Assembly: GCF_001983935.1 (NCBI RefSeq)
Contig: NZ_CP017641.1
Location: 186,001-250,000 of the forward strand
DNA: 64,000 nt
Source of the DNA: Fuerstiella marisgermanici
Lineage (GTDB): Bacteria > Planctomycetota > Planctomycetia > Planctomycetales > Planctomycetaceae
Reading direction: 5' to 3'
Under the pieces are notes generated by a model. That model was not told the origin of the DNA. It searched no databases and was given only the letters and a program-made list of their open reading frames with translations. A program made the translations under genes and the position numbers. Positions 31,334-62,029 of the stretch are shown here, piece by piece (positions within the stretch are counted from its first letter, which is position 1; each line of letters starts with the position of its first letter).

Positions 31334-31481
31334 AGCCCCGCTCCTTCAAGCGTGCATGAACGCGAACAACCCTCAAAACGCGCCGTGATTATAGAAGGCA
31401 TCTTTAGAACTTCAACGAAGCCGCAAACGTACTCGAAATGAGGAATGCTGGTGGACGTGGCAGCAACCACGGCGGTGACAG

Positions 31482-31648
31482 CAACCACGAAAGTCACGAA
31501 ACACACGAAAAGGAATGCGACGGCATAGAAGCAAAGTAGGGACAATTCTATGCAGGATGGGCGCTGTTCATGAGACAATCGGAACAGCAGTTGACTGGCA
31601 ATGCCCGTCCTGCTGTCTCTTTCGTGTGGTTCGTAAATTTCGTGGTTG
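31482..31648. repeat. Hairpin element copy A (CCACGAAAG family)
   Basis: A 29-nt arm at 31482-31510, beginning CAACCACGAAAGTCACG, is repeated inverted at 31620-31648 with 26 of 29 positions matching; a 109-nt spacer lies between. It is one of four copies of a dispersed element confined here to 31.4-39.4 kb. It sits between sdhC and the FN3-like gene. No open frame in the spacer is convincing. Confidence 0.85.
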
Positions 31649-31692
31649 AAACCTGCCGCTCTGCGATTCACTTCCGTGCGCAGACACAGCGC

Positions 31693-31720
31693 AAAAAAAA
31701 GCCGACGGTTTCCCATCGGC
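31693..31720 (-). terminator. Rho-independent terminator of the 31.8-32.4 kb gene
   Basis: On the minus strand, GCCGATGGGAAACCGTCGGC forms an 8-bp stem with one mismatch and is followed directly by eight T residues (plus-strand A-run 31693-31700). It lies about 30 bp beyond the stop of the gene ending at 31750. Confidence 0.85.
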
Positions 31721-31749
31721 TCGAAATGCCCTTCTGATTCTTCAAAACA

Positions 31750-32406
31750 TTACACAGCCGGAATCGTGCCGCCGAAGACGGGGCTCCACGGGCCGGTTTC
31801 GCCGCGAGTGTTCACCCAGCGAAGCAGGTAGTGAGCCGTCTTGCCGCCGTCTTCTGCCTTGAAGCTCACATCAGCGAAGTCGCGAGTGGCAATGGTGGCC
31901 AGGCGATAGTCTTCCGGATTTTCCGGAGCGTGATCGGCGACCGCCACATACACTTCGCAGCCTGTGACGCCATGAGGTTTCCCCTTACGCGTTCGTCGTT
32001 GGGGGTCGAAGATCGTGACGGTGTGACGCAGCAGGTCGGTGCTGATCACGGCACCCACAGGAAATTCGGTCGGCGTTTGCACCGGAGTTCTGTGAGAACT
32101 GCGAGGCGTCACGCCCAGCCGTTCCAGAGCCGCGTTGCTGACTTCGTCGTTGCCTTTGACAAAACGAAACGTCGACTGCAGAGCATCCAGCAGTTCGGTG
32201 CGAGCCACGTCTTTTTCGTTTGTGGCCGCCTTCGCTTCATCTTTGGCGGCTTCGTGAGCTGCCAGTTTTTCTTTGTAAACTTCCAGAGCCGTTTTGACTC
32301 GGTCGGTCCGCTCGCCCGCATGGTACTCGTTCGGAAATTCTTCCAGCACGGTGACAGCGTTCTGAGCGAAAGGCCCGAGTTCATGGGCGTTCTTGGGAAC
32401 AGCCAT
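31750..32406 (-). CDS. Hypothetical protein with fibronectin-III-like C-terminus
   Basis: A 218-residue protein from the ATG at 32406, favoured because AAGGAAG lies 7 nt upstream. The first half is helical and charged (VYKEKLAAHEAAKDEAKAATNEKDVARTE, read in parts), and the second half, about residues 125-218, looks like a beta-sandwich (VTGCEVYVAVADHAP then AHYLLRWVNTRGETGPWSPVFGGTIPAV), resembling the G-strand end of an FN3 domain. No signal peptide. Function not recognised. It has its own terminator and lies just upstream of the 21-bp repeat array, which is 300-540 bp before its start. Confidence 0.75.
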   Translation of the reverse strand: MAVPKNAHELGPFAQNAVTVLEEFPNEYHAGERTDRVKTALEVYKEKLAAHEAAKDEAKAATNEKDVARTELLDALQSTFRFVKGNDEVSNAALERLGVTPRSSHRTPVQTPTEFPVGAVISTDLLRHTVTIFDPQRRTRKGKPHGVTGCEVYVAVADHAPENPEDYRLATIATRDFADVSFKAEDGGKTAHYLLRWVNTRGETGPWSPVFGGTIPAV

Positions 32407-32704
32407 GAGCACTTCCTTTCGGAAAAGAACATCGCAGAATCATCCAGCCAACGTCTGTCGACGGCGAAGGGCACCCAACCGACAACACACAGCGTGAGGG
32501 GACAACACTGCCAAGAGTTACGCAGTCAACCCATCAAACCGGGCCTGCACAAAAAAGCTAGGCCCGAAAGTTCTCACGAACGCGGAAGAATTTTCTGCAG
32601 AAGGCCGAAGCCGCAAAACCACCCAGTTAATTTCTGCCGCCGACACGAATGCTAACGATAACGCAGCACATGCACTTCCTACGAACAGCACAACCAAACG
32701 CCTC

Positions 32705-32935
32705 GCTCACTCCGCCGAACAGTTGGACAGGTTCGCCGAAGAGTCTGACAAGTCTGTCAGACTCTTCGACAGGCCTGTCAGAAAGTTGGACAGAGCTGCC
32801 AGACAGTTCGACTGGTCTGTCAGAACGTCCGCACAAACTGTCCACCAATCCGCCAGCACAAAATTATTGTTCGACAGAGTTGTCAGCAACCTTTTCCAAC
32901 TCGCCAGACTTCCCACCAGCGCTGTCAAACCGCAG
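32705..32935. repeat. Tandem array of eleven 21-bp units with dyad cores
   Basis: Eleven consecutive 21-bp units run without a phase break from 32705 to 32935. The best units (starting at 32747, 32768, 32789, 32810 and 32873) begin with a near-palindrome of consensus GACAGNNCTGTC followed by AGANNGTTC/G; outer units are degenerate but keep phase. The spacing is two turns of B-DNA, so the dyads face one side of the helix. Alternatives are a binding-site array, a centromere-like or iteron-like site, or the remains of a heptapeptide-repeat gene. Confidence 0.85.
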
Positions 32936-32946
32936 GACGTCTAGAA

Positions 32947-33029
32947 CAACCACGAAAGGGACGAAATTCACGAAAGAATCGCAGAACTCGGGCCGTGCTT
33001 TTTCGTGTGTTTCGTTATTTTCGTGGTTG
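32947..33029. repeat. Hairpin element copy B (CCACGAAAG family)
   Basis: Arms at 32947-32975 and 33001-33029 are inverted repeats with 24 of 29 positions matching, around a 25-nt spacer starting GAATCGCAGAACTCG. This is a minimal 83-bp form of the element. It begins only 11 bp after the 21-bp array ends. Confidence 0.88.
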
Positions 33030-33089
33030 CCCAACCCACTCACCGAACAATCTGTTCCCATCCGAGCAGCCAGGAGTCAGTGAACCTAA

Positions 33090-33220
33090 GTAGGGCAGGC
33101 TCCCGCCTGCCGAATTCGATCGCGGTCGCTTGAAACACAACCGCTGGCCTGGCAGATGGTCGTAAGAAGTTGTTTTTCGCAGAAAAACAAAGACGTTGGC
33201 AGGCGGGAGCCTACCAACTA
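33090..33220. repeat. Composite palindrome with nested hairpins
   Basis: GTAGGGCAGGCTCCCGCCTG at 33090 and its approximate inverse GGCAGGCGGGAGCCTACC at 33198 flank about 86 bp. Each arm is itself a palindrome (GGCAGG/CCTGCC), and the interior contains a further hairpin, TGTTTTTC-GCA-GAAAAACA. This looks like a dispersed MITE- or REP-like element; only one copy is present in the window. Confidence 0.75.
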
Positions 33221-33835
33221 CCGGGACTTGAAGACATAGGCGACGAATGAGTCACGGTTGTTCCGCCATGACAATGTACGCAACTGAAGAACTAATGGAC
33301 CTGCAGGGACGCGTCGCGAATATGTCTTCCACCGCCCGTCTTCTCCATTTGGAAAGGAACACGCTGTTTCCCCCTTGACTTCAGTCCACCCATCTCGCAC
33401 GAGCTGTGTTCTGCGAACTTCGTCAAGAACCTCTTTGCCGAGGTACTTCCAACGAATGAGTGCATACACAGTTGCTGGTTTTATCAGTCGAAGTTGTCCA
33501 TGTCCCAGCCAACTGGCCGAATCTTCACCGGGCTGCCTGAGGAGCAGCACGCCGCCAGCAACTTCTGGTGGCAAAGCAGTAATTAAGTATTGACGAGCCG
33601 ATTGAATCGGAACCCCGATCTCAGCCTTCTTGAGAATCCAGGAATTCGGAGATGACTCAGTCAGTTCCACAAGATGATCTGAGTCTGTGGGGCTGTCATC
33701 GACTGGTGGGCCCGCTGGCGCTCCTTCAATGACAAACTGACCACTGACTTTCGCCACAATCTTATCATTGTCGTACGCAGCGAGTTCATATGGAATGGCC
33801 GATGGCTCCTCAGCGGACGCGTAGAATCGAAGATG

Positions 33836-35278
33836 GAGCAATTGTCAAATGTTGTGTTTTGGGTTTTTGATTTAGGCGGCGATATCATCCTGCATGATTC
33901 CGTCTTTGAAGGAACGTCCTTCGATGACGAGTGTGATCTTTTCGTGGCAGTTGAGTCGTCTCCATTTCTTCGATGCTGACTGAGCCAGCTTGAACATCAT
34001 CGCTAAGCTCGCCCGTCTTGTTCCGCTGCCTTTGGTCTTGCGGTGACGAAGGCGGATCGTCGCGAAGGTGGATTCGATCGGGTTGGTTGTCCGCAAGTGG
34101 CTCCAGTGTTCGGCCGGGAAATCGTAGAACGTCAGCAGCTCGTCGCGGTCCTTCTTCAGGCAATCGCAAGCCGCTGCATACTTCGCACCGTACTTTTCAA
34201 TGAATTTATCGAACGCTTTGTTCGCATCGTCCTTCGTTTCTGCCTGCCAGATTTCGTGCAGGTCGCCTTTCGCTTTGGGTTGAACGCTCTTAGGCATCTT
34301 GTTGAGAACATTGGCCGTCTTGTGAACCCAACAGCGTTGTTCACGAGTCTCGGGGAATACTTTGCGGATCGCGGCCCAGAAGCCAAGCGCACCATCGCCA
34401 ACGGCAACCTTCGGTGACAATTGCAGGCCACGTTGCTTCAAGTCGACCAGTAACTCGCACCAGCTCTGCTCGCTCTCGCGGTAACCGTCCAGCACCGCGA
34501 TCAATTCTTTCTGGCCTTCCGGCGTAGCCCCCATCAGCACCAGCAAACACTGCTTTTTATTGGCGTCATCCTCCAGTCGGACCTTCGCGTGAATGCCGTC
34601 GGCCCAGATGTAAACGTACTGCTTGTTCGATAGATCCCGCTTGCTCCAGTCATCGTATTCGCTGCACCACTGATCCTTGAGCCGGCAAACCACGTTGGGA
34701 CTCAGCCCGGCGGCCCGCTCGCCGACGAGCGACTGCAACGCCTCGTTGAAGTCACCCGTGGAAATTCCTTTGAGGTAAAGCCAGGGGATGAGTTCTTCAA
34801 TGGCCTTCGTTTTTCGCAGATAGCTCGGAAGCACGCTTGGCGAGAAAGCCACCCGTTTTTCGCGATCAGGATCGTTGTCGCGGACACGCCCCTGAGTGAC
34901 CGGAATCGCTCCGGCACCGGTGAGGATGTCCCGCTCCGGAAGGCTTCCGTTCTTGACGACCAGTCGCCGGCCGTGCTCGTCAGTCCGATCCGCATGCATG
35001 GCGACGAACGCATCCACCTCGGCATCGACTGCGGTTTGTAGCATCCGCCTGGCTCCCTCACGGACAATCTCGTCGAGCGGACTTCGCTCGTCGAACTGAG
35101 CCCGAAAGGAAATCACTTCGGGATCGAGCGCTTGACCCACTGGCACTTTGGTTCGGTCTGTTTTAGTCTTGCTCATAGCGTATTCCTTTGCCCACTTCGG
35201 GCCGTTGGAGAGGAGAAGTTCCAACAGGATGCGCCACCTTTCTCATTCACTCAAGAACACAACTTTCGACAATAACTC
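33836..35278 (-). mobile_element. IS256-family insertion sequence, copy 1 (1,443 bp)
   Basis: The left end GAGCAATTGTCAAATGTTGT and the inverted right end GAGTTATTGTCGAAAGTTGT form the terminal repeats. A perfect 9-bp duplication, TCGAAGATG, flanks it at 33827-33835 and 35279-35287, in line with IS256-family elements (8-9 bp). The single transposase gene is on the minus strand. The same 1,443-bp element recurs at 60587-62029 with identical translations in every frame I compared, so both copies moved recently. Confidence 0.95.
33872..35176 (-). CDS. IS256-family transposase (Mutator-like), copy 1
   Basis: A 434-residue DDE transposase from the ATG at 35176, which has AAAGGA 8 nt upstream (a longer frame to 35224 lacks such a site). 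The catalytic acids are in IWADGIHAKV (first D), AVGDGALGFW (second D) and TTNPIESTFATIRLR (E). The Mutator-family signature GDGALGFWAAIRKVFPET-RCWVHKTANVLNKMP, read in parts, is present. It catalyses cut-and-paste or copy-out transposition of its own element. The frame is intact, so probably active. Identical in sequence to copy 2. Confidence 0.97.
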   Translation of the reverse strand: MSKTKTDRTKVPVGQALDPEVISFRAQFDERSPLDEIVREGARRMLQTAVDAEVDAFVAMHADRTDEHGRRLVVKNGSLPERDILTGAGAIPVTQGRVRDNDPDREKRVAFSPSVLPSYLRKTKAIEELIPWLYLKGISTGDFNEALQSLVGERAAGLSPNVVCRLKDQWCSEYDDWSKRDLSNKQYVYIWADGIHAKVRLEDDANKKQCLLVLMGATPEGQKELIAVLDGYRESEQSWCELLVDLKQRGLQLSPKVAVGDGALGFWAAIRKVFPETREQRCWVHKTANVLNKMPKSVQPKAKGDLHEIWQAETKDDANKAFDKFIEKYGAKYAAACDCLKKDRDELLTFYDFPAEHWSHLRTTNPIESTFATIRLRHRKTKGSGTRRASLAMMFKLAQSASKKWRRLNCHEKITLVIEGRSFKDGIMQDDIAA

Positions 35279-35480
35279 TCGAAGATGACGGGCCTCCGCC
35301 AACGGAAGATCCAGCGTGGTTCCACCCAAACGAACATTGAGTTTCTTCAAGAGCATGGTATCAGAATAAAACTCGGTGTCATTGTGGCCCTTGTAGACCC
35401 ACACGGCATCCCTGCGTGAGATTTCCGGAATGTCTAACGCATGGGAAGATGCTCAACCTGATCCCAGTGGAGTTTCTGGT

Positions 35481-35723
35481 CTAGGGTGCGAATTCGTATT
35501 CGAAACAGCCACACAGGGAGAATGGGCGATTCTCCGAGTTCAACAAATCATGGCGTTCCAGATTCTTCTCGCACACGGCCGTTTCCCTGGTCGCGATCTC
35601 CTCGATGTTTTCGATCGTATCCCACTGCGCGGTCCGATCACACCAGAGCCATCGCAACTGACTCACATAATGGTTGCTCCACCGGTTGGTGACTCTCCCT
35701 CGTTTCAATTGGATTCTGGTCAT
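35481..35723 (-). CDS. Small hypothetical protein
   Basis: An 80-residue frame beginning MTRIQLKRGRVTNRWSNH. The start at 35723 is supported by a GAGGAAA Shine-Dalgarno 5 nt upstream. No family recognised; rich in charged residues with several tryptophans and cysteines (LRWLWCDRT, FSLCGCFEYEF). It ends 28 bp before the open frame of the split gene begins, in the same direction. It could be an independent small gene or the 5' part of that gene separated by a frameshift; continued coding-like sequence beyond its stop in another frame makes the second idea worth testing. Confidence 0.45.
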   Translation of the reverse strand: MTRIQLKRGRVTNRWSNHYVSQLRWLWCDRTAQWDTIENIEEIATRETAVCEKNLERHDLLNSENRPFSLCGCFEYEFAP

Positions 35724-36076
35724 GTTGATTTCCTCGCTCTCGTGGGCATAACGGATGCCGAGGCACAATTTGCCCGTCACTATGATGGCGAGCGTTGCTG
35801 GCCCGGCTGAAGAGAAACGATGCGTTTCCGGTCACCGATCCCGAGCGGTCTTGCACCGTCGCCCCCTGACGCCGCAGATTCATTCGGTGGACGCGAGCCG
35901 CTACATTTTCGGCGATTCAATGCATACACTGCTGGAAAGGCCATCGGTGATTTTTCGCGGTTCCCGATGGTCCGCTGCCGGGTTGCCTCGTACGTTATCC
36001 CACTTGCCTGATTCCCAGGTTGCGGTGAATGCTCATGCTGGCCTGTTGCGGCAAAATTGTGCCCGCTGGGTTTTGA
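35724..36076. other. Intergenic region; no gene seen
   Basis: A 353-bp gap between the small minus-strand frame and the divergent AlkX-like gene. Overlapping frames here have no protein-like composition and no start signals, and I see no clear repeat. Confidence 0.4.
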
Positions 36077-37282
36077 ATGTCCATGAACGAATCGCTCTCC
36101 ACCGAACAAGCCAGGAAACTTGTCCTGTTATCACAGCGGGTGCCGCCGGCGAAGCAGGCCGGTCGAGCAACGGAAGCGACACTGTCGGCGATTGAACATC
36201 TTGGATACATCCAGATCGACACCATCTCCGTCGTTCAACGCGCTCATCATCACACTTTGTGGAATCGCAATCCTCGCTACCAACCGAACCAGCTCGATCA
36301 GTTAGTTTCCGAGAAACGGGTGTTTGAATACTGGTCTCATGCGGCCGCTTACCTGCCCTTTCGCGACTTCCGGTTCAGCCTTCCTCGCAAACATGCGTTT
36401 GCAAATGGCGAGCAGCGGCATTGGTATCAACGTGATGAGCGGATGATAAAGCTGGTGCTCAAACGCATTGCCACCGAAGGCCCCTTGATGGCGAAAGATT
36501 TTTCGCATACCGGCAAGAGGGTCGGTGAATGGAAGGCTAAGCCCGCCAAACGCGCGCTGGAGTATCTGTTTATGCAAGGGGATCTCATGGTGCCCCGCCG
36601 CGTGAACTTTCACAAGGTTTACGATCTCACTGAGCGGGTGCTGCCCAAAGGGACTGACACCACCGTGCCTGATCGACAGGAATACGCCCGCTTTCTGATT
36701 ACACGCTACTTGCGAGCAAACGGTTTGGGCCAATCTGCCGAAATCGCGTATCTGCAGAACGGCGCAAAGCCGCTTATTGCTGCGACTTTGGAGGACATGG
36801 TTTCTAACAGAGAGCTGCAACGCGTTCGCGTCGCAGATCAGCTGTACTTCGCGTTGCCAGCCACGCTGGAGCTTCTCGGCAAACCGTTGGCTCGCAGCAA
36901 ACTGAAAATACTTTCGCCCTTCGACAACCTTGTCATTCAGCGCGATCGCGTGAAGGCGTTGTTCGGATTTGACTACCTGATTGAGTGCTACGTCCCTGAA
37001 CGCAAACGACGACACGGGTACTTTTGTTTGCCCATTCTGTGGGACGGAAAGCTGGTGGCTCGAATGGACTGCAAAACCGAGAGGAAGGAATCAATGCTAC
37101 ATATTCATCATCTGGTACTGGAACCCACAGCCTTGAAAACCGATGCGTTGTTCCTCGCCTTGCGCAAGGAACTGAAATCATTCCTAAAGTTCAATCACTG
37201 CACCAGGCTCAAGCTTCACAGAACGTCCCCCGCAAAGGCTAAGACGCAGTTACAGAAGTTTATCAGTGACCTCACGCAATGA
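36077..37282 (+). CDS. AlkX/YcaQ-type winged-helix DNA glycosylase (HTH_42 superfamily)
   Basis: A 401-residue protein of the HTH_42 (AlkZ/AlkX, YcaQ) superfamily. These enzymes use tandem winged helices to remove alkylated or cross-linked bases. The N-terminus has LSTEQARKLVLLSQ, and the catalytic QxD-type motif is in HLGYIQIDTISVVQRAHHHTLWNR, as in the AlkX branch (the AlkZ branch has QxQ). YWSHAAAYLPFRDF and ILSPFDNLVIQRDR are other family signatures. The length matches (about 400). Two in-frame ATGs (36077 and 36083) are near equivalent. It is flanked by IS elements, which fits an accessory DNA-repair or self-resistance gene, but genotoxin linkage is not seen. Confidence 0.85.
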   Translation: MSMNESLSTEQARKLVLLSQRVPPAKQAGRATEATLSAIEHLGYIQIDTISVVQRAHHHTLWNRNPRYQPNQLDQLVSEKRVFEYWSHAAAYLPFRDFRFSLPRKHAFANGEQRHWYQRDERMIKLVLKRIATEGPLMAKDFSHTGKRVGEWKAKPAKRALEYLFMQGDLMVPRRVNFHKVYDLTERVLPKGTDTTVPDRQEYARFLITRYLRANGLGQSAEIAYLQNGAKPLIAATLEDMVSNRELQRVRVADQLYFALPATLELLGKPLARSKLKILSPFDNLVIQRDRVKALFGFDYLIECYVPERKRRHGYFCLPILWDGKLVARMDCKTERKESMLHIHHLVLEPTALKTDALFLALRKELKSFLKFNHCTRLKLHRTSPAKAKTQLQKFISDLTQ

Positions 37283-37430
37283 CCGGCTCCAGTGATGTGT
37301 GAATTCAAACCCTAAGATTGCGTTTCAAATTTGAATTCACGACGACGGATCACCATCGCGCGCACACAAACGCACGTTGGTTCAGTTTTACCAATGGATG
37401 TGCAATTCACGGGCCCCGGAGACGCGGGGG

Positions 37431-38673
37431 ATTGCACGTTAAGTCATTTGCCGAACAGGACTTTCGCGAGGTATGTCTCATCCCAGGCAGCATTGAGTCT
37501 TTTGTTTTTGATCCCCACCTTGGCTGTGGATTCGTTTTTCAGAAGACTCAACGCCGTGCGGCGAAGGATGCTGAAGTTCATGTCTGCGTGGCCTTTACGG
37601 ATCCTCGATTGATCTTCCTGGAAAGTGACGTCCAGTTGCCAATGCAAATTGTTCTCGACACCCCAATGGCTCCGCACAGCTTCGGCGAAACGACGGCCGG
37701 AGACATAACGGCTTAAAATGTAATAGCGGATGCCGATGCACATTTTGCCGTCGCGGAGAGTGTTGTTGATCGCGATCCCGATCGCCTTCAGGTTCTTCCA
37801 GCGATGTGCGTCCGGAAGATCCTCCGGCGCACGACAGATCAGATACTGTCGCAAATCTTCGCGGCCGCCGGTGTTTTCTTTCGTTTCAAATCGTCGCACC
37901 GGACAGCGTGCAAAGTCATCTTCCAAATGGTCGGCGAAGAACGCGACAAGACCTGCGTGTAGCGTGGGCTGATTGCCTTTCGCGGCAAGACAATAGTCCG
38001 CCTCTGCGTCGACAATCTTCGACGCGATTTCCGTTTGGCAACCCATGGCGTCAATCGTCACTAAAGCACCGGAAACCTCGATCAATTCCAGCAGTTTGGG
38101 AATCGCCGTAATCTCATTACTCTTCGCATCGACGACGACTTGCCCGAGACTGATATGATTGGCTGTGGCCCATGCACTGACCATGTGGATGGCCGACTTG
38201 CCACTGGCTTTGTCATAGCTGCGACGGAGTGTCTTACCATCGATCGCGATGATTTGTCCGTCACTGATTTTCTGCAGAGAAGTGATCCAATTCAGTAAGC
38301 ACTTTTCAAATTCTGCAGGACGAATCAGAGCGAGGATGGCGTTGAAACGATCGTGCGACGGAATCCCTGCGGACAGATCGAGATACTTCGCAAACCAATC
38401 TCGTTTCGTTCTGCCAAACTTCGCAATCGCGACAAAATCATCCGCGCCACTGATCACAGCACAGACTGCAATGAACAGAATATTTTGAAGCGGATAGACC
38501 GGCTCACCGCGCCTTGGATCCGTAACATCAGAGAAATGATCGACAAAACTGGTGGACAAAGGCATGGCAGGAATCCTTTCGCGGCTCAAACATTTCAGCA
38601 CACATAGCAGCGTGAAACATCACACTGACACTGAAGGTTGCCATCTATACCATCTCACCTAATGTCGCGCAAT
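37431..38673 (-). mobile_element. ISAs1-family insertion sequence (boundaries approximate)
   Basis: About 1.24 kb around an ISAs1-type transposase. Weak inverted ends are visible: ATTGCACG with TTAAGTCA at the left (37431 onward) and, inverted, ATTGCGCGACATTAGGTGA at the right (ending near 38673). No clear target duplication was found, so the limits are uncertain by tens of bases and the insertion may be old. Confidence 0.6.
37444..38565 (-). CDS. ISAs1-family transposase
   Basis: A 373-residue transposase from the ATG at 38565 (MPLSTSFVDHFSDV). It has the N-terminal DDE_Tnp_1-associated domain (DPRRGEPVYPLQNILFIAVCAV, read in parts) and a DDE core: IIAIDGKTLRRSYD (first D), LVTIDAMGCQTEIA (second D), and HWGVENNLHWQLDVTFQEDQSR (E region). 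The H-repeat-associated proteins of E. coli belong to this family. The frame is complete, so it could be functional. It lies between the AlkX-like gene and the GxxExxY gene. Confidence 0.93.
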   Translation of the reverse strand: MPLSTSFVDHFSDVTDPRRGEPVYPLQNILFIAVCAVISGADDFVAIAKFGRTKRDWFAKYLDLSAGIPSHDRFNAILALIRPAEFEKCLLNWITSLQKISDGQIIAIDGKTLRRSYDKASGKSAIHMVSAWATANHISLGQVVVDAKSNEITAIPKLLELIEVSGALVTIDAMGCQTEIASKIVDAEADYCLAAKGNQPTLHAGLVAFFADHLEDDFARCPVRRFETKENTGGREDLRQYLICRAPEDLPDAHRWKNLKAIGIAINNTLRDGKMCIGIRYYILSRYVSGRRFAEAVRSHWGVENNLHWQLDVTFQEDQSRIRKGHADMNFSILRRTALSLLKNESTAKVGIKNKRLNAAWDETYLAKVLFGK

Positions 38674-38702
38674 CGACCTACAGCCTGACCTACAGAAGGG
38701 AA

Positions 38703-38784
38703 CAACTACGTAAGGTAAGAAATACTCCAATGAATCACAGAATACAGCCAGCCTTTTTCGTGTGTTTCGTAATTTTCGTGGTTG
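38703..38784. repeat. Hairpin element copy C (CCACGAAAG family)
   Basis: The right arm 38756-38784 matches the other copies well, while the left arm 38703-38731 is degenerate (about 20 of 29 positions agree with the family). The spacer AATCACAGAATACAGCC aligns with the copy B spacer. It ends 13 bp before the 3' end of the GxxExxY gene. Confidence 0.72.
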
Positions 38785-38797
38785 TTAAACACGCGGC

Positions 38798-39175
38798 TCA
38801 CCGAACGATCCGCTCCCATTCCAGTTTCGGATGGTGGCCAAAGTTGACCAGCAAGCCGAGGCGATGCCCGGTTGCTTTCAAATAGTTGTGAATCTGAGCC
38901 TGGTGTTCCTCGGTGAGTTTGGAGACAGCTTTGATTTCCAGAATGATCTTGCCGAAGCAGACGAAGTCCGGTTTGTAGACTTGAGTCAGTCGGCGTCCCT
39001 TGTAGCTCAATTCCAGTTCCTGCTGGGTAGCGAATGGGAGGGACTGAAGAGCCAGTTCGAGTTCCAGGCATTCCTGATAGACCGGTTCGACGAAGCCGGT
39101 GCCCTTTTCTTTGTAGACTTCGAAGCAGGCTCCCATGATCTTGTAGGATTCTTCTTTGAACAGAATCTCTGGCAT
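38798..39175 (-). CDS. GxxExxY protein, PD-(D/E)XK nuclease-like
   Basis: A 125-residue protein of the GxxExxY family (PDDEXK superfamily). The name-giving motif is G27-F-V-E30-P-V-Y33. The nuclease-type active site looks intact: D70 in YKPDFVCF and E80/K82 in IILEIKAV, with Q92/Q94 in EEHQAQIHNYLKATG. Its biochemical activity is unknown to me, but the residues suit metal-dependent DNA cleavage. The gene is flanked closely by two hairpin elements, copy C 13 bp after its stop and copy D 37 bp before its start. Length is normal for the family (about 125-140). A GGAAAGA lies 7 nt before the ATG. Confidence 0.88.
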   Translation of the reverse strand: MPEILFKEESYKIMGACFEVYKEKGTGFVEPVYQECLELELALQSLPFATQQELELSYKGRRLTQVYKPDFVCFGKIILEIKAVSKLTEEHQAQIHNYLKATGHRLGLLVNFGHHPKLEWERIVR

Positions 39176-39212
39176 CGCTGATCTTTCCGGCGAAGGGAGG
39201 GGCGGACGGGAG

Positions 39213-39320
39213 GAACCACGAAAGTCACGAAATACACGAAAGAAATCGCAGAGAGCCAGTCAGTCGGACTTTGTCCACGCACCTGTGCTTCTTTCGTGTG
39301 TTTCGTCTTTTTTGTGGTTG
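39213..39320. repeat. Hairpin element copy D (CCACGAAAG family)
   Basis: Arms at 39213-39241 (GAACCACGAAAGTCACGAAA at its start) and 39292-39320 are inverted repeats with a 50-nt spacer. The bases after the left arm, GAAATCGCAGAG, match copies B and C. It lies between the start of the GxxExxY gene and the stop of the MFS gene. Confidence 0.87.
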
Positions 39321-39355
39321 CAAATGCCCGAGCAACAAAAGGGGCGAGGTTTCGC

Positions 39356-40741
39356 TTATTTCTTCTCATGAATTTCGCTGTCTGCCGCTCCGCACTTTGC
39401 GAAGTACCAGACGACGGCCAGGATCAATGGCATTGCTCCGGCGAAGAAGAACATCTGGCGAAATCCGACGCCATCAAACTGAGGCAGGTCGATGATTTTG
39501 CCGAGCAGGGGGGCTGAAATTCCGCTTCCCAGATCCAGACAGCCCAACGTCAGGTTGATCCCGCTGCCTCGATAGCGAGGCGGAAACGTGCCCGATCCCA
39601 GTGACACAATTGAAGGGAACAGTAGCGCGTGGCCGAACCCGCACAGGACGGCGGAAAACAGGAGGTGCCACCAGGCCGAAACCGGAATCAGGGACCACAA
39701 ACCCAGCCCCTGAAAAATGAGTCCCATCAGGATCAAACGATACCGGCCGACTCGCTGACTAAGCGCTGCCGTCCGCAGCCGAAACGTGAATGCCGTGATG
39801 GCGTAGATGGTCCAGTAGGCGGCGATTCCACCGAAGTGTTCGTGCTGATTGAACCTCACCAAATACAACGACGGCACGGTAAAGACCAGTCCCATTGTCA
39901 TGGACACCACAACGACAAGGCCTGGCCAGTGTCGTCGAGTCAAAGTCAGCAACGATGGTCGAGCTTCATGCTTTTCGGGGCGCGGCAGGCCTTTTGTCAC
40001 CAGCAGCAAACAGACGATGTACGCGGCCAGCAATCCCGCCGCCAACATGAAGACTCGCGGAAAGAAAACGTTAACGTCGTCGTCGGCCAGCCATCGCAGG
40101 AAATCCGCCAGTTGCGGACCCAGAATCATTCCGACAAACCCGCTGCTGCCCAGTAGAGCGATAAATTCTGTACGGCGGAACTCCGGCACGCAGGACTGAA
40201 TATGAAACGTGCTGCAGGTGAACATTCCGGCCAGTCCCGTTGCAAACAGAACGCGTCCCAGCACCAGCAATGGCGAAACGGTGGTCAGTGTGGCGAAGAT
40301 TGAAATTCCGGTGAAAGCCAGCGAAGCCATCAACGCCCACACGCGACGCACACCAAACCTGTCGATGGATTGGCCAAGAAAAACGCGAACGCAAATGGCG
40401 GCAAGAATGCCGTACTGGATGATTCGGCCTGGCAGTTCCTCCTGATATGCGACTCCCGTTGTGCCGTGTTGAGCCAGCCATGCGACCCAGTCGGCGAACA
40501 CAAACGTCAGCGCATTGGCGGTGACCAGCAGCAGATTGGCGATGTACGACAGCACGAACACCGGGTGTCCGATGCCATTGATTGTCGCATCGCTGCCAGC
40601 GAGTGACGCGGTCCCCGCATTTTTTGCGACAGTGCCGGGCGAACGATACGGATCACTGCCTGCAGATCCCGATCCGATTTCACTGACGACATCTTCTGGC
40701 TGCGTATGATGTCCTGAGTCGTCAGCCACCGAACGCTCCAT
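39356..40741 (-). CDS. MFS transporter
   Basis: About 461 residues from the ATG at 40741 (MERSVADDSGH); a longer frame to 40828 has a poor leader. After a ~50-residue hydrophilic N-terminus there are about 12 membrane helices with a central charged loop (KGLPRPEKHEARPSLL). The GRxxDRxGxRR-type loop motif appears as GQSIDRFGVRRVWALM, and ALLFPSIVSLGSGTFPPRYRGSG is typical of the C-terminal half. It exports or imports an unknown small molecule by ion coupling. Its start overlaps the end of the ABC permease gene by 20 bp, so it may be in that operon. Confidence 0.85.
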   Translation of the reverse strand: MERSVADDSGHHTQPEDVVSEIGSGSAGSDPYRSPGTVAKNAGTASLAGSDATINGIGHPVFVLSYIANLLLVTANALTFVFADWVAWLAQHGTTGVAYQEELPGRIIQYGILAAICVRVFLGQSIDRFGVRRVWALMASLAFTGISIFATLTTVSPLLVLGRVLFATGLAGMFTCSTFHIQSCVPEFRRTEFIALLGSSGFVGMILGPQLADFLRWLADDDVNVFFPRVFMLAAGLLAAYIVCLLLVTKGLPRPEKHEARPSLLTLTRRHWPGLVVVVSMTMGLVFTVPSLYLVRFNQHEHFGGIAAYWTIYAITAFTFRLRTAALSQRVGRYRLILMGLIFQGLGLWSLIPVSAWWHLLFSAVLCGFGHALLFPSIVSLGSGTFPPRYRGSGINLTLGCLDLGSGISAPLLGKIIDLPQFDGVGFRQMFFFAGAMPLILAVVWYFAKCGAADSEIHEKK

Positions 40742-60177: not shown

Positions 60178-60250
60178 GCCGCCGTAGCTCAGTTGGCAGA
60201 GCGATGCTTTCGTAAAGCATAGGTCGTGAGTTCGAATCTCACCGGTGGCT
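60178..60250 (+). tRNA. tRNA-Thr (anticodon CGU)
   Basis: A 73-nt cloverleaf. The acceptor pairs are GCCGCCG (60178-60184) with CGGTGGC (60243-60249), with discriminator T. The D-stem is GCTC/GAGC. The anticodon arm ATGCT-TTCGTAA-AGCAT has CGT as anticodon. The T-arm GTGAG-TTCGAAT-CTCAC is perfect. CCA is not encoded. An IS3-family element begins 60 bp downstream. Confidence 0.95.
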
Positions 60251-60586: not shown

Positions 60587-62029
60587 GAGCAATTGTCAAA
60601 TGTTGTGTTTTGGGTTTTTGATTTAGGCGGCGATATCATCCTGCATGATTCCGTCTTTGAAGGAACGTCCTTCGATGACGAGTGTGATCTTTTCGTGGCA
60701 GTTGAGTCGTCTCCATTTCTTCGATGCTGACTGAGCCAGCTTGAACATCATCGCTAAGCTCGCCCGTCTTGTTCCGCTGCCTTTGGTCTTGCGGTGACGA
60801 AGGCGGATCGTCGCGAAGGTGGATTCGATCGGGTTGGTTGTCCGCAAGTGGCTCCAGTGTTCGGCCGGGAAATCGTAGAACGTCAGCAGCTCGTCGCGGT
60901 CCTTCTTCAGGCAATCGCAAGCCGCTGCATACTTCGCACCGTACTTTTCAATGAATTTATCGAACGCTTTGTTCGCATCGTCCTTCGTTTCTGCCTGCCA
61001 GATTTCGTGCAGGTCGCCTTTCGCTTTGGGTTGAACGCTCTTAGGCATCTTGTTGAGAACATTGGCCGTCTTGTGAACCCAACAGCGTTGTTCACGAGTC
61101 TCGGGGAATACTTTGCGGATCGCGGCCCAGAAGCCAAGCGCACCATCGCCAACGGCAACCTTCGGTGACAATTGCAGGCCACGTTGCTTCAAGTCGACCA
61201 GTAACTCGCACCAGCTCTGCTCGCTCTCGCGGTAACCGTCCAGCACCGCGATCAATTCTTTCTGGCCTTCCGGCGTAGCCCCCATCAGCACCAGCAAACA
61301 CTGCTTTTTATTGGCGTCATCCTCCAGTCGGACCTTCGCGTGAATGCCGTCGGCCCAGATGTAAACGTACTGCTTGTTCGATAGATCCCGCTTGCTCCAG
61401 TCATCGTATTCGCTGCACCACTGATCCTTGAGCCGGCAAACCACGTTGGGACTCAGCCCGGCGGCCCGCTCGCCGACGAGCGACTGCAACGCCTCGTTGA
61501 AGTCACCCGTGGAAATTCCTTTGAGGTAAAGCCAGGGGATGAGTTCTTCAATGGCCTTCGTTTTTCGCAGATAGCTCGGAAGCACGCTTGGCGAGAAAGC
61601 CACCCGTTTTTCGCGATCAGGATCGTTGTCGCGGACACGCCCCTGAGTGACCGGAATCGCTCCGGCACCGGTGAGGATGTCCCGCTCCGGAAGGCTTCCG
61701 TTCTTGACGACCAGTCGCCGGCCGTGCTCGTCAGTCCGATCCGCATGCATGGCGACGAACGCATCCACCTCGGCATCGACTGCGGTTTGTAGCATCCGCC
61801 TGGCTCCCTCACGGACAATCTCGTCGAGCGGACTTCGCTCGTCGAACTGAGCCCGAAAGGAAATCACTTCGGGATCGAGCGCTTGACCCACTGGCACTTT
61901 GGTTCGGTCTGTTTTAGTCTTGCTCATAGCGTATTCCTTTGCCCACTTCGGGCCGTTGGAGAGGAGAAGTTCCAACAGGATGCGCCACCTTTCTCATTCA
62001 CTCAAGAACACAACTTTCGACAATAACTC
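60587..62029 (-). mobile_element. IS256-family insertion sequence, copy 2 (1,443 bp)
   Basis: Same length, ends and reading frames as copy 1 at 33836. A perfect 9-bp duplication, CCATACTGA, flanks it at 60578-60586 and 62030-62038, and lies inside orfB of the IS3-family element. The order of events is therefore IS3 first, IS256 second. The transposase gene is intact. Confidence 0.96.
60623..61927 (-). CDS. IS256-family transposase (Mutator-like), copy 2
   Basis: A 434-residue transposase, identical in sequence to copy 1 over its whole length, including the catalytic D, D and E regions (IWADGIHAKV, AVGDGALGFW, TTNPIESTFATIR). The start at 61927 is preceded by the same AAAGGA site. Transcription probably starts inside the IS or reads in from the IS3 orfAB direction, which is the same strand. 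Intact frame, so possibly active. Confidence 0.97.
   Translation of the reverse strand: MSKTKTDRTKVPVGQALDPEVISFRAQFDERSPLDEIVREGARRMLQTAVDAEVDAFVAMHADRTDEHGRRLVVKNGSLPERDILTGAGAIPVTQGRVRDNDPDREKRVAFSPSVLPSYLRKTKAIEELIPWLYLKGISTGDFNEALQSLVGERAAGLSPNVVCRLKDQWCSEYDDWSKRDLSNKQYVYIWADGIHAKVRLEDDANKKQCLLVLMGATPEGQKELIAVLDGYRESEQSWCELLVDLKQRGLQLSPKVAVGDGALGFWAAIRKVFPETREQRCWVHKTANVLNKMPKSVQPKAKGDLHEIWQAETKDDANKAFDKFIEKYGAKYAAACDCLKKDRDELLTFYDFPAEHWSHLRTTNPIESTFATIRLRHRKTKGSGTRRASLAMMFKLAQSASKKWRRLNCHEKITLVIEGRSFKDGIMQDDIAA

Follow-up and report, generated by a model that had tools for sequence, protein, structure and literature searches.

The GxxExxY gene of the window (the whole 64-kb stretch of DNA analyzed here) and the periodic inverted arms that surround it likely form one minimal selfish element of approximately 0.45 to 0.6 kb, a reading to which we assign a probability of about 0.66. 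Action of the nuclease on the arms and copying of the unit are inferred, and there are no biochemical data. The novelty would lie in a palindrome-bound selfish element with a new class of enzyme. A search of the open-access literature retrieved no description of GxxExxY genes in palindromic arms, with subscription papers and preprints lying outside the search.

The GxxExxY gene of the window and four hairpins

The gene occupies positions 38798 to 39175 on the minus strand and encodes a 125-amino-acid PD-(D/E)XK protein (PF13366/TIGR04256) in which the catalytic residues D70, E80, and K82 are present. A hairpin at 38703 to 38784 lies 13 bp from the 3′ end of the gene, and a second one at 39213 to 39320 lies 37 bp from its 5′ end. 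Two further hairpins, at 31482 to 31648 and at 32947 to 33029 (83 bp, with a short loop), have the same arm type and contain no gene. The original prediction, made from the sequence alone, had placed four hairpins at these positions, two of them bracketing an intact GxxExxY gene at 13 and 37 bp, and both claims held, with the reservation that one hairpin is damaged. Computed against mononucleotide shuffles, the folding z-scores are −7.5 for the hairpin at 31482, −6.7 for that at 32947, −6.3 for that at 39213, and −1.4 for that at 38703, where the arm motif was detected on the right side only. This difference indicates that the left arm of the last hairpin has decayed, while the right arm is intact.

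The single 29-nt arm sequence that had been proposed needs correction, as the arms are a degenerate periodic motif. Those of the hairpin at 39213 to 39320 are made of the 9-nt units CCACGAAAG TCACGAAAT ACACGAAAG, and the inner GAATCGCAGA stretch, first described as common to the hairpins, can be read as one more unit of the periodic arm. The sequence GAATCGCAG is present also in both arms of another GxxExxY copy of the genome, located at 7.59 Mb. An 18-nt arm core, searched with up to 3 mismatches, has 6 matches in the 64-kb window versus a shuffle mean of 0.07.

An 8-kb block (31418 to 39421) containing all four hairpins is absent from the same-genus genome G243, where the genes left of 31.4 kb, which we take to be those of succinate dehydrogenase, directly adjoin an MFS gene. 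Whether the block was gained in the genome of the window or lost in G243 is undecided. G243 was also rejected as an empty site for the window unit, given that the whole block is missing and is uninformative on a single unit. Hairpins are found near both ends of this block. An ISAs1 element (37426 to 38684) ends 18 bp from the hairpin at 38703 to 38784 and has three other copies in the genome at 100% identity, one of them 4 bases shorter. An exact 300-bp repeat is found at 33836 to 34135 and 60587 to 60886, with the first copy overlapping the end of an IS256-type transposase gene, and an imperfect repeat run around CTGTCAGA/GACAG was seen by eye at 32720 to 32900, immediately left of the second hairpin.

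Sequence, predicted fold, and selection of the GxxExxY protein

The window protein matches PF13366 (PDDEXK_3) with an E value of 2e-41 and 141.5 bits (cutoff, 22) and TIGR04256 with an E value of 2e-41 and 141 bits (cutoff, 35). PF13366 is the sole family retrieved for the window gene in a Pfam scan at an E value of 1e-3. An alignment of 37 of the 50 proteins first listed shows that residues G27, E30, and Y33 of the GxxExxY motif and the catalytic residues D70, E80, and K82 are invariant, as are G25, Y98, N111, and F112; the same alignment contains no invariant or near-invariant cysteine.

The structure model of the window protein has a pLDDT of 94.2. The nearest solved fold is that of SSO0001 (PDB 4ic1), which we take to be a Cas4 protein, with a Foldseek E value of 3.2e-4 and a VIA Z score of 10.0 (rmsd of 4.1, 100 aligned). 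The Z score for Hjc, a junction resolvase of archaea, is 6.8, which is not distinctive, and no solved relative was found by sequence at E values of up to 1. On the basis of the model, the fold is predicted to be nearest to Cas4 and not to a Y1 transposase; there are no biochemical data on the protein. The expectation that a PD-(D/E)XK enzyme stands in the place of the Y1 transposase held, the bracketed gene being PDDEXK_3 only. No strong match was obtained with PADLOC, in which the window protein weakly matched one candidate model (E value of 0.0012), and the Cas4 profile was weakly matched by a related protein (L026; E value of 4e-4) and not by the window protein. A PHROG search of the GxxExxY protein gave no match.

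The GxxExxY gene is subject to purifying selection, with dN/dS values of about 0.09 to 0.115. The value is ∼0.115 for the window gene and its relative in genome G244 (0.195/1.699, with synonymous sites near saturation) and ∼0.11 and ∼0.09 for two species pairs carrying element A, a unit described below.

Copies and arms in the genome of the window

The window corresponds to bases 186001 to 250000 of a single 8.92-Mb contig, in which a TIGR04256 search retrieved five GxxExxY copies, two of which are broken. Inverted arms surround all five, with scores of 20.5, 28.5, 21, 32, and 23.5 versus shuffle maxima of 9.5 to 13. The arm units are CACGAAA in the window, CACGGAG at 4.52 Mb, CACGGAA/CACAGAC at 7.59 Mb, and CGCAGAG at 3.12 and 5.77 Mb. 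They share a common plan, usually an outer (A)ACC followed by approximately three CRCRRAR-type units with 1 to 3 bases between them. Of these copies, those of the YLKAT type (window and 7.59 Mb) are bounded by CACGRAA arms, and CACGGAG arms accompany the YMKL copy.

A strict search for this plan with an AACC start gave 12 matches in the genome and none in the reversed control. These matches include bare hairpins at 0.80, 4.27, 4.69, 5.38, and 8.54 Mb, with arms like those of the gene-bearing types; in the hairpin at 8.54 Mb, part of one arm has decayed. The arm type of the window itself (up to 3 mismatches) occurs genome-wide as 10 half-sites, with none in the reversed-pattern control; seven are in the four hairpins of the window, two are in one hairpin at 4.27 Mb, and one stands alone at 2.89 Mb.

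GxxExxY genes are tied to periodic inverted arms across many phyla

The association was examined in the best 80 of 581 confirmed loci, a sample that covers many phyla, was obtained with one profile, and is biased to the lineage of the query; it contains three archaeal loci (L052, L063, and L075). The left flank of each gene was compared with the reverse-complemented right flank (300 bp each), and scores of ≥14 were taken as positive. Inverted flanks were found for 57 of 78 GxxExxY genes versus 13 of 1,424 control positions of the same loci, the other 21 genes scoring below 14. Of the archaeal loci, L052 is negative and the other two are positive. The arm motif, which was defined after such arms had been seen, is present on both sides of 52 of 78 genes versus 2 of 1,800 control positions, on one side of 15 genes versus 69 controls, and on neither side (within 300 bp) of 11 genes versus 1,729 controls. 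Each of the two tests lost 2 of the 80 loci at contig ends. GxxExxY genes are thus tied to periodic inverted arms across many phyla, and the enrichment of arms beside these genes, by which the original prediction was to stand or fall, was found.

In 40 of the 52, the gene lies between two single arms, which is the most common arrangement; the others have the orientations L gene L (5 genes), R gene L (4 genes), and R gene R (3 genes). The two whole hairpins that had been taken as the frame of the gene are here a variant of this arrangement. Over 0.99 Mb, 151 of 242 matches to the arm motif lie at most 300 bp from the gene, and the reversed sequence has 16 matches. Away from the query gene, the convergent arm pairs of the 80 loci consist of 37 bare hairpins and 3 gene-sized pairs, two of which hold another GxxExxY gene, with the third lacking one.

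Within the phylum of the window, inverted flanks with scores of ≥14 were found for 55 of 66 genes from 65 genomes, and 11 genes scored lower. When left and right flanks were taken from different genes, 145 of 1,500 pairs were positive, and the own flank was strictly the best partner for 38 of the 66 genes. This sample drew on 30 loci, minus 5 cut by contig ends, all from the best-scoring profile matches, and on 40 further genes handpicked among the best-scoring rows with their flanks unseen at picking. One genome (G166) was counted twice, with one locus (L032) below 14 and another (L253) above it; without L032, the count is 55 of 65.

Matches to the region of the window gene were found in 14 further genomes of the family, of which 11 were read first and G087 (L282) later, with G225 and G240 being left out; one additional stretch (L344) was geneless. 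All 11 carry arm sequence on at least one side of the gene. The two-hairpin arrangement of the window recurs in L328, L331 (with a decayed arm), L342, and L343. In L282, one side of the gene carries two whole hairpins and the other side carries none, and the inverted-flank score is 8.

Two other families were examined in the same way. The control consisted of GIY-YIG genes, mostly small, from the phylum of the window; inverted flanks were found in 2 of 21 cases (9 of 30 loci were cut by contig ends), so that a parallel arm rule for GIY-YIG genes in general was rejected. Some small GIY-YIG genes (L201 of G203, L230, and L233) do lie between palindromic arms, ATTCCCGC...GCGGGAAT or TTGTCATTGCGAGG. 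Genes for four-helix-bundle proteins (TIGR02436; L127 to L156) have inverted arms with scores of ≥14 in 26 of 28 cases, 2 of 30 loci having been cut by contig ends. The best arm period is 7 in 19 of 26 four-helix-bundle loci and 8, 9, or 10 in 52 of 55 GxxExxY loci. An exception to this division of arm classes is L152, a four-helix-bundle gene in CACGRAG arms of the GxxExxY type. The GIY-YIG and four-helix-bundle loci together contain 6 GxxExxY-type arm matches in 185 kb. Direct, evenly spaced arrays of single arms were observed near the GxxExxY genes of L121 and L125 (spacings of ∼130 bp and 98 bp), in Psychromonas and Colwellia.

The arms vary with the protein

Among the 55 of 66 phylum loci that score ≥14, arm similarity correlates with protein similarity, with a Mantel r value of 0.459 that none of 2,000 permutations reached (maximum, 0.20). 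Where the last helix of the protein contains YLKL, the units are mostly ...GAG/...AAG, and most YLKAT-type proteins have ...GAT or ...GAA(A/T) units, with exceptions such as L249, L258, L275, and L279. Gene and arms descend together, as shown by a permutation test that was not corrected for host relatedness. The covariation is not by itself proof that the protein recognizes its arms, since shared inheritance could also produce it.

Empty sites, filled sites, and decay of the unit

The whole unit, gene plus arms, is present or absent at orthologous sites. At site 1, which is that of the L028 copy, 11 genomes of a single genus share orthologous flanking genes. The site is empty in G204, where the two genes overlap by ATGA with neither gene nor hairpin between them (frames checked), and this overlap indicates that site 1 is probably inside an operon. 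Element A, with arms CACCGCAGAG..., is present in 4 of the 11 genomes; it has an internal gap in G049 and a changed motif residue in G199. Element B or its remains, with arms AACCACAGATT..., are present in 6 of the 11. Most of the element B gene is retained in G202, G201, and G205, it is truncated in G153 and mostly gone in G070, and in G203, it is interrupted by a GIY-YIG open reading frame having palindromic arms of its own. With the exception of this insert, the A and B units read contain no second long gene. The proteins of A and B are only 36 to 40% identical, which shows that site 1 was entered at least twice.

At site 2, read in six genomes, two carry a gene-bearing unit with ACAGGAT arms, one carries bare ACAGGAT-type arms, and three carry unrelated periodic hairpins. 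These last (L336, L338, and L339) are made of AAACCGTTT-like units and stand where sister species carry the GxxExxY element. No clear target site duplication was found by reading at sites 1 and 2, which are both A+T rich.

Relatives of element A elsewhere in the genus, compared by reading, range from a full but decayed copy (L207) through internally deleted copies that share one locus (L208, L209, L210, and L212) and a more extensively deleted copy at a different locus (L211) to bare hairpins (L214 and L216). The series comprised ten stretches, from which L213 and L215 were excluded because they have an arm on one side only. It shows a decay from the gene-bearing unit through internal deletion to the bare hairpin. 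Two more points of the original prediction are thereby borne out: the search that it proposed for empty sites found some in related genomes, and the view that geneless hairpins are nonautonomous derivatives is supported by the deletion series. That the unit is mobile is inferred from the empty sites.

Distribution of GxxExxY genes

Of 199 genomes sampled from the phylum of the window, 96 have GxxExxY matches, with up to 15 in a single genome. Searches with one query each gave matches in 7 of 72,556 plasmid records and in none of 50,697 phage records; among 2.9 million viral contigs, 6 loci were found. Given this near absence, carriage by phages or plasmids was not supported as the means of spread, and ordinary vectors hardly explain the distribution. 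The six loci in viral contigs (L386 to L391) hold distant GxxExxY relatives with inverted flanks (scores of 15 to 57); two resemble the GxxExxY arm type, and three have long inverted repeats of another kind.

One query searched in 12 genomes found no near-identical paralogues, the closest other copy in the same genome being 73% identical. Recent transposition was therefore not supported within this scope, and movement is more likely to be old, rare, or mostly between genomes.

Proposed mode of spread

In the reading that we prefer, the PD-(D/E)XK nuclease would recognize its own arms, either extruded as a hairpin or cruciform or exposed as single strands at a replication fork, and would nick or cut either these arms or the target. 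A copy of the unit may then be made in another intergenic site by host repair or by template switching, and fold-back copying would keep the two arms complementary. A precedent is found in the Rpn nucleases, whose cleavage products were proposed to prime DNA synthesis in a template-switch model (PMC5350276). The stretch from 38703 to 39320 would be the gene-bearing copy, and the hairpins at 31482 and 32947 would be nonautonomous or decayed derivatives. The link between protein and hairpin, which the original prediction had inferred, is strongly supported as an association, and action of the nuclease on the hairpin remains an inference.

Under this reading, a large uncharacterized nuclease family gains a candidate substrate and a probable selfish lifestyle, and some intergenic hairpin repeats are explained as derivatives of GxxExxY elements. 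The many arm types, each with its own enzyme, offer a natural experiment on the covariation between a nuclease and its DNA ends. Should the nuclease alone drive the spread, it would represent a route of transposition without transposase chemistry.

A bolder reading, which we regard as less likely than not, is that these units belong to a class of minimal selfish elements of bacteria and archaea that combine periodic inverted arms of short units with one small protein. The class would include at least two unrelated protein lineages, namely, GxxExxY with 8- to 10-nt arms and the four-helix bundle with arms of ∼7 nt, and possibly some GIY-YIG proteins. Its members would spread by nuclease-started copying via hairpin DNA without a classical transposase and would give rise to intergenic hairpin repeats found in environmental genomes.

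Alternative explanations

The alternative that survives best, although unlikely, is an element acting at the RNA level, in which the arms pair as an RNA stem and thereby loop the insert out of the host transcript for processing, as RNase III does on 23S rRNA intervening sequences, with the role of the protein being RNA related or incidental. The intervening sequence of the Coxiella 23S rRNA has the same architecture: its terminal stem is 28 bp long, and it contains tandem heptamers together with a small open reading frame (PMC4990558). The four-helix-bundle genes in periodic inverted arms and the probable location of site 1 within an operon also favor this view. Against it, the mismatches on the sense strand of the gene show no G-U excess that would point to RNA-level selection on the arms (124 G-U versus 109 A-C in 112 elements; P = 0.36), a test of limited power. 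Residence in rRNA or a known RNA family was likewise rejected, with no Rfam matches in 20 loci and at the hairpins, and the fold is nearest to those of DNA nucleases. The window contains only one tRNA, at 60178 to 60250.

A second unlikely possibility is that of target preference, in which the hairpins are independent repeats and the GxxExxY genes, moved by other means, settle in or beside them, as some insertion sequences target REPs. This would agree with the repeated occupation of one site by different elements, with the position of the window gene between two whole hairpins, and with the one-sided hairpins of L282. However, the empty site has neither gene nor hairpin, gene remnants within hairpins show that the direction is from gene-bearing to bare, the arms vary with the protein, and the A and B units that were read carry no other gene except the GIY-YIG insert of G203.

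It is very unlikely that the unit is a module of the defense or toxin-antitoxin kind, with a toxic nuclease controlled by arm-derived repeat RNA. Type III toxin-antitoxin systems provide the comparison. A small nuclease beside short repeats and the weak PADLOC matches of L026 and the window protein speak for such a module, but the repeats are mostly inverted and do not form direct arrays, 37 of the arm pairs are bare hairpins, and PADLOC gave no strong match.

That the hairpins are passengers of neighboring insertion sequences, contained by chance in an island made by these, draws on the nearby ISAs1 with its three identical copies and on the 8-kb block lacking in G243 but is all but excluded by the wide sample, since the association persists in loci of many phyla picked regardless of insertion sequences.

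Comparison with known systems

REP/RAYT systems and REPINs (PMC2817692, PMC3116915, and PMC3733652) consist of a small transposase gene bracketed by palindromes and of dispersed geneless palindromes. GxxExxY units resemble them in having one small gene between palindromes of a type dispersed in the genome, together with geneless intergenic palindromes. In contrast, the GxxExxY enzyme is a PD-(D/E)XK protein with a predicted Cas4-like fold, and the bracketed gene contains no HuH/Y1 transposase. The GxxExxY arms are periodic, with units of 8 to 10 nt, several arm types occur in one genome, and copies are few, the 8.9 Mb of the window's genome holding 5 copies of the gene plus several bare hairpins. 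A GTAG or CGTC tag has been reported at the end of the palindromes of REP/RAYT systems (PMC3733652).

Rpn proteins (YhgA-like, PF04754) are likewise multicopy PD-(D/E)XK nucleases and are associated with RecA-independent recombination (PMC5350276), but the window protein has no PF04754 match in the Pfam scan at an E value of 1e-3. The terms “inverted repeat” and “flanked” do not occur in the main text of that report on Rpn.

Free-standing homing endonucleases include the PD-(D/E)XK enzyme I-Ssp6803I, and the GxxExxY gene is similar to these in being a lone nuclease gene that would act as a selfish element in intergenic DNA. Hairpin arms, geneless derivatives, and dispersal to unrelated sites are not known as features of homing. 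With Cas4, the GxxExxY protein shares the RecB-like PD-(D/E)XK fold, and only the fold. Conserved iron-sulfur cysteines are a feature of Cas4, whereas the GxxExxY alignment has no invariant cysteines, and the protein is 125 amino acids long versus ∼200. The terminal inverted repeats around GxxExxY genes are reminiscent of DDE transposons and MITEs, but there is no DDE transposase, the gene between the arms being PDDEXK_3.

The 23S rRNA intervening sequences are similar in enclosing a small open reading frame within complementary terminal arms that contain short tandem units, and that of Coxiella has been termed a selfish element (PMC4990558). GxxExxY units differ from them in being located between protein genes, with no Rfam match in 20 loci, in having arm units of 8 to 10 nt instead of 7, and in encoding a PDDEXK_3 nuclease fold instead of an S23p/four-helix-bundle open reading frame. 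The arms of the four-helix-bundle genes described above, mostly built of 7-nt units, resemble the heptamers of the Coxiella 23S rRNA intervening sequence.
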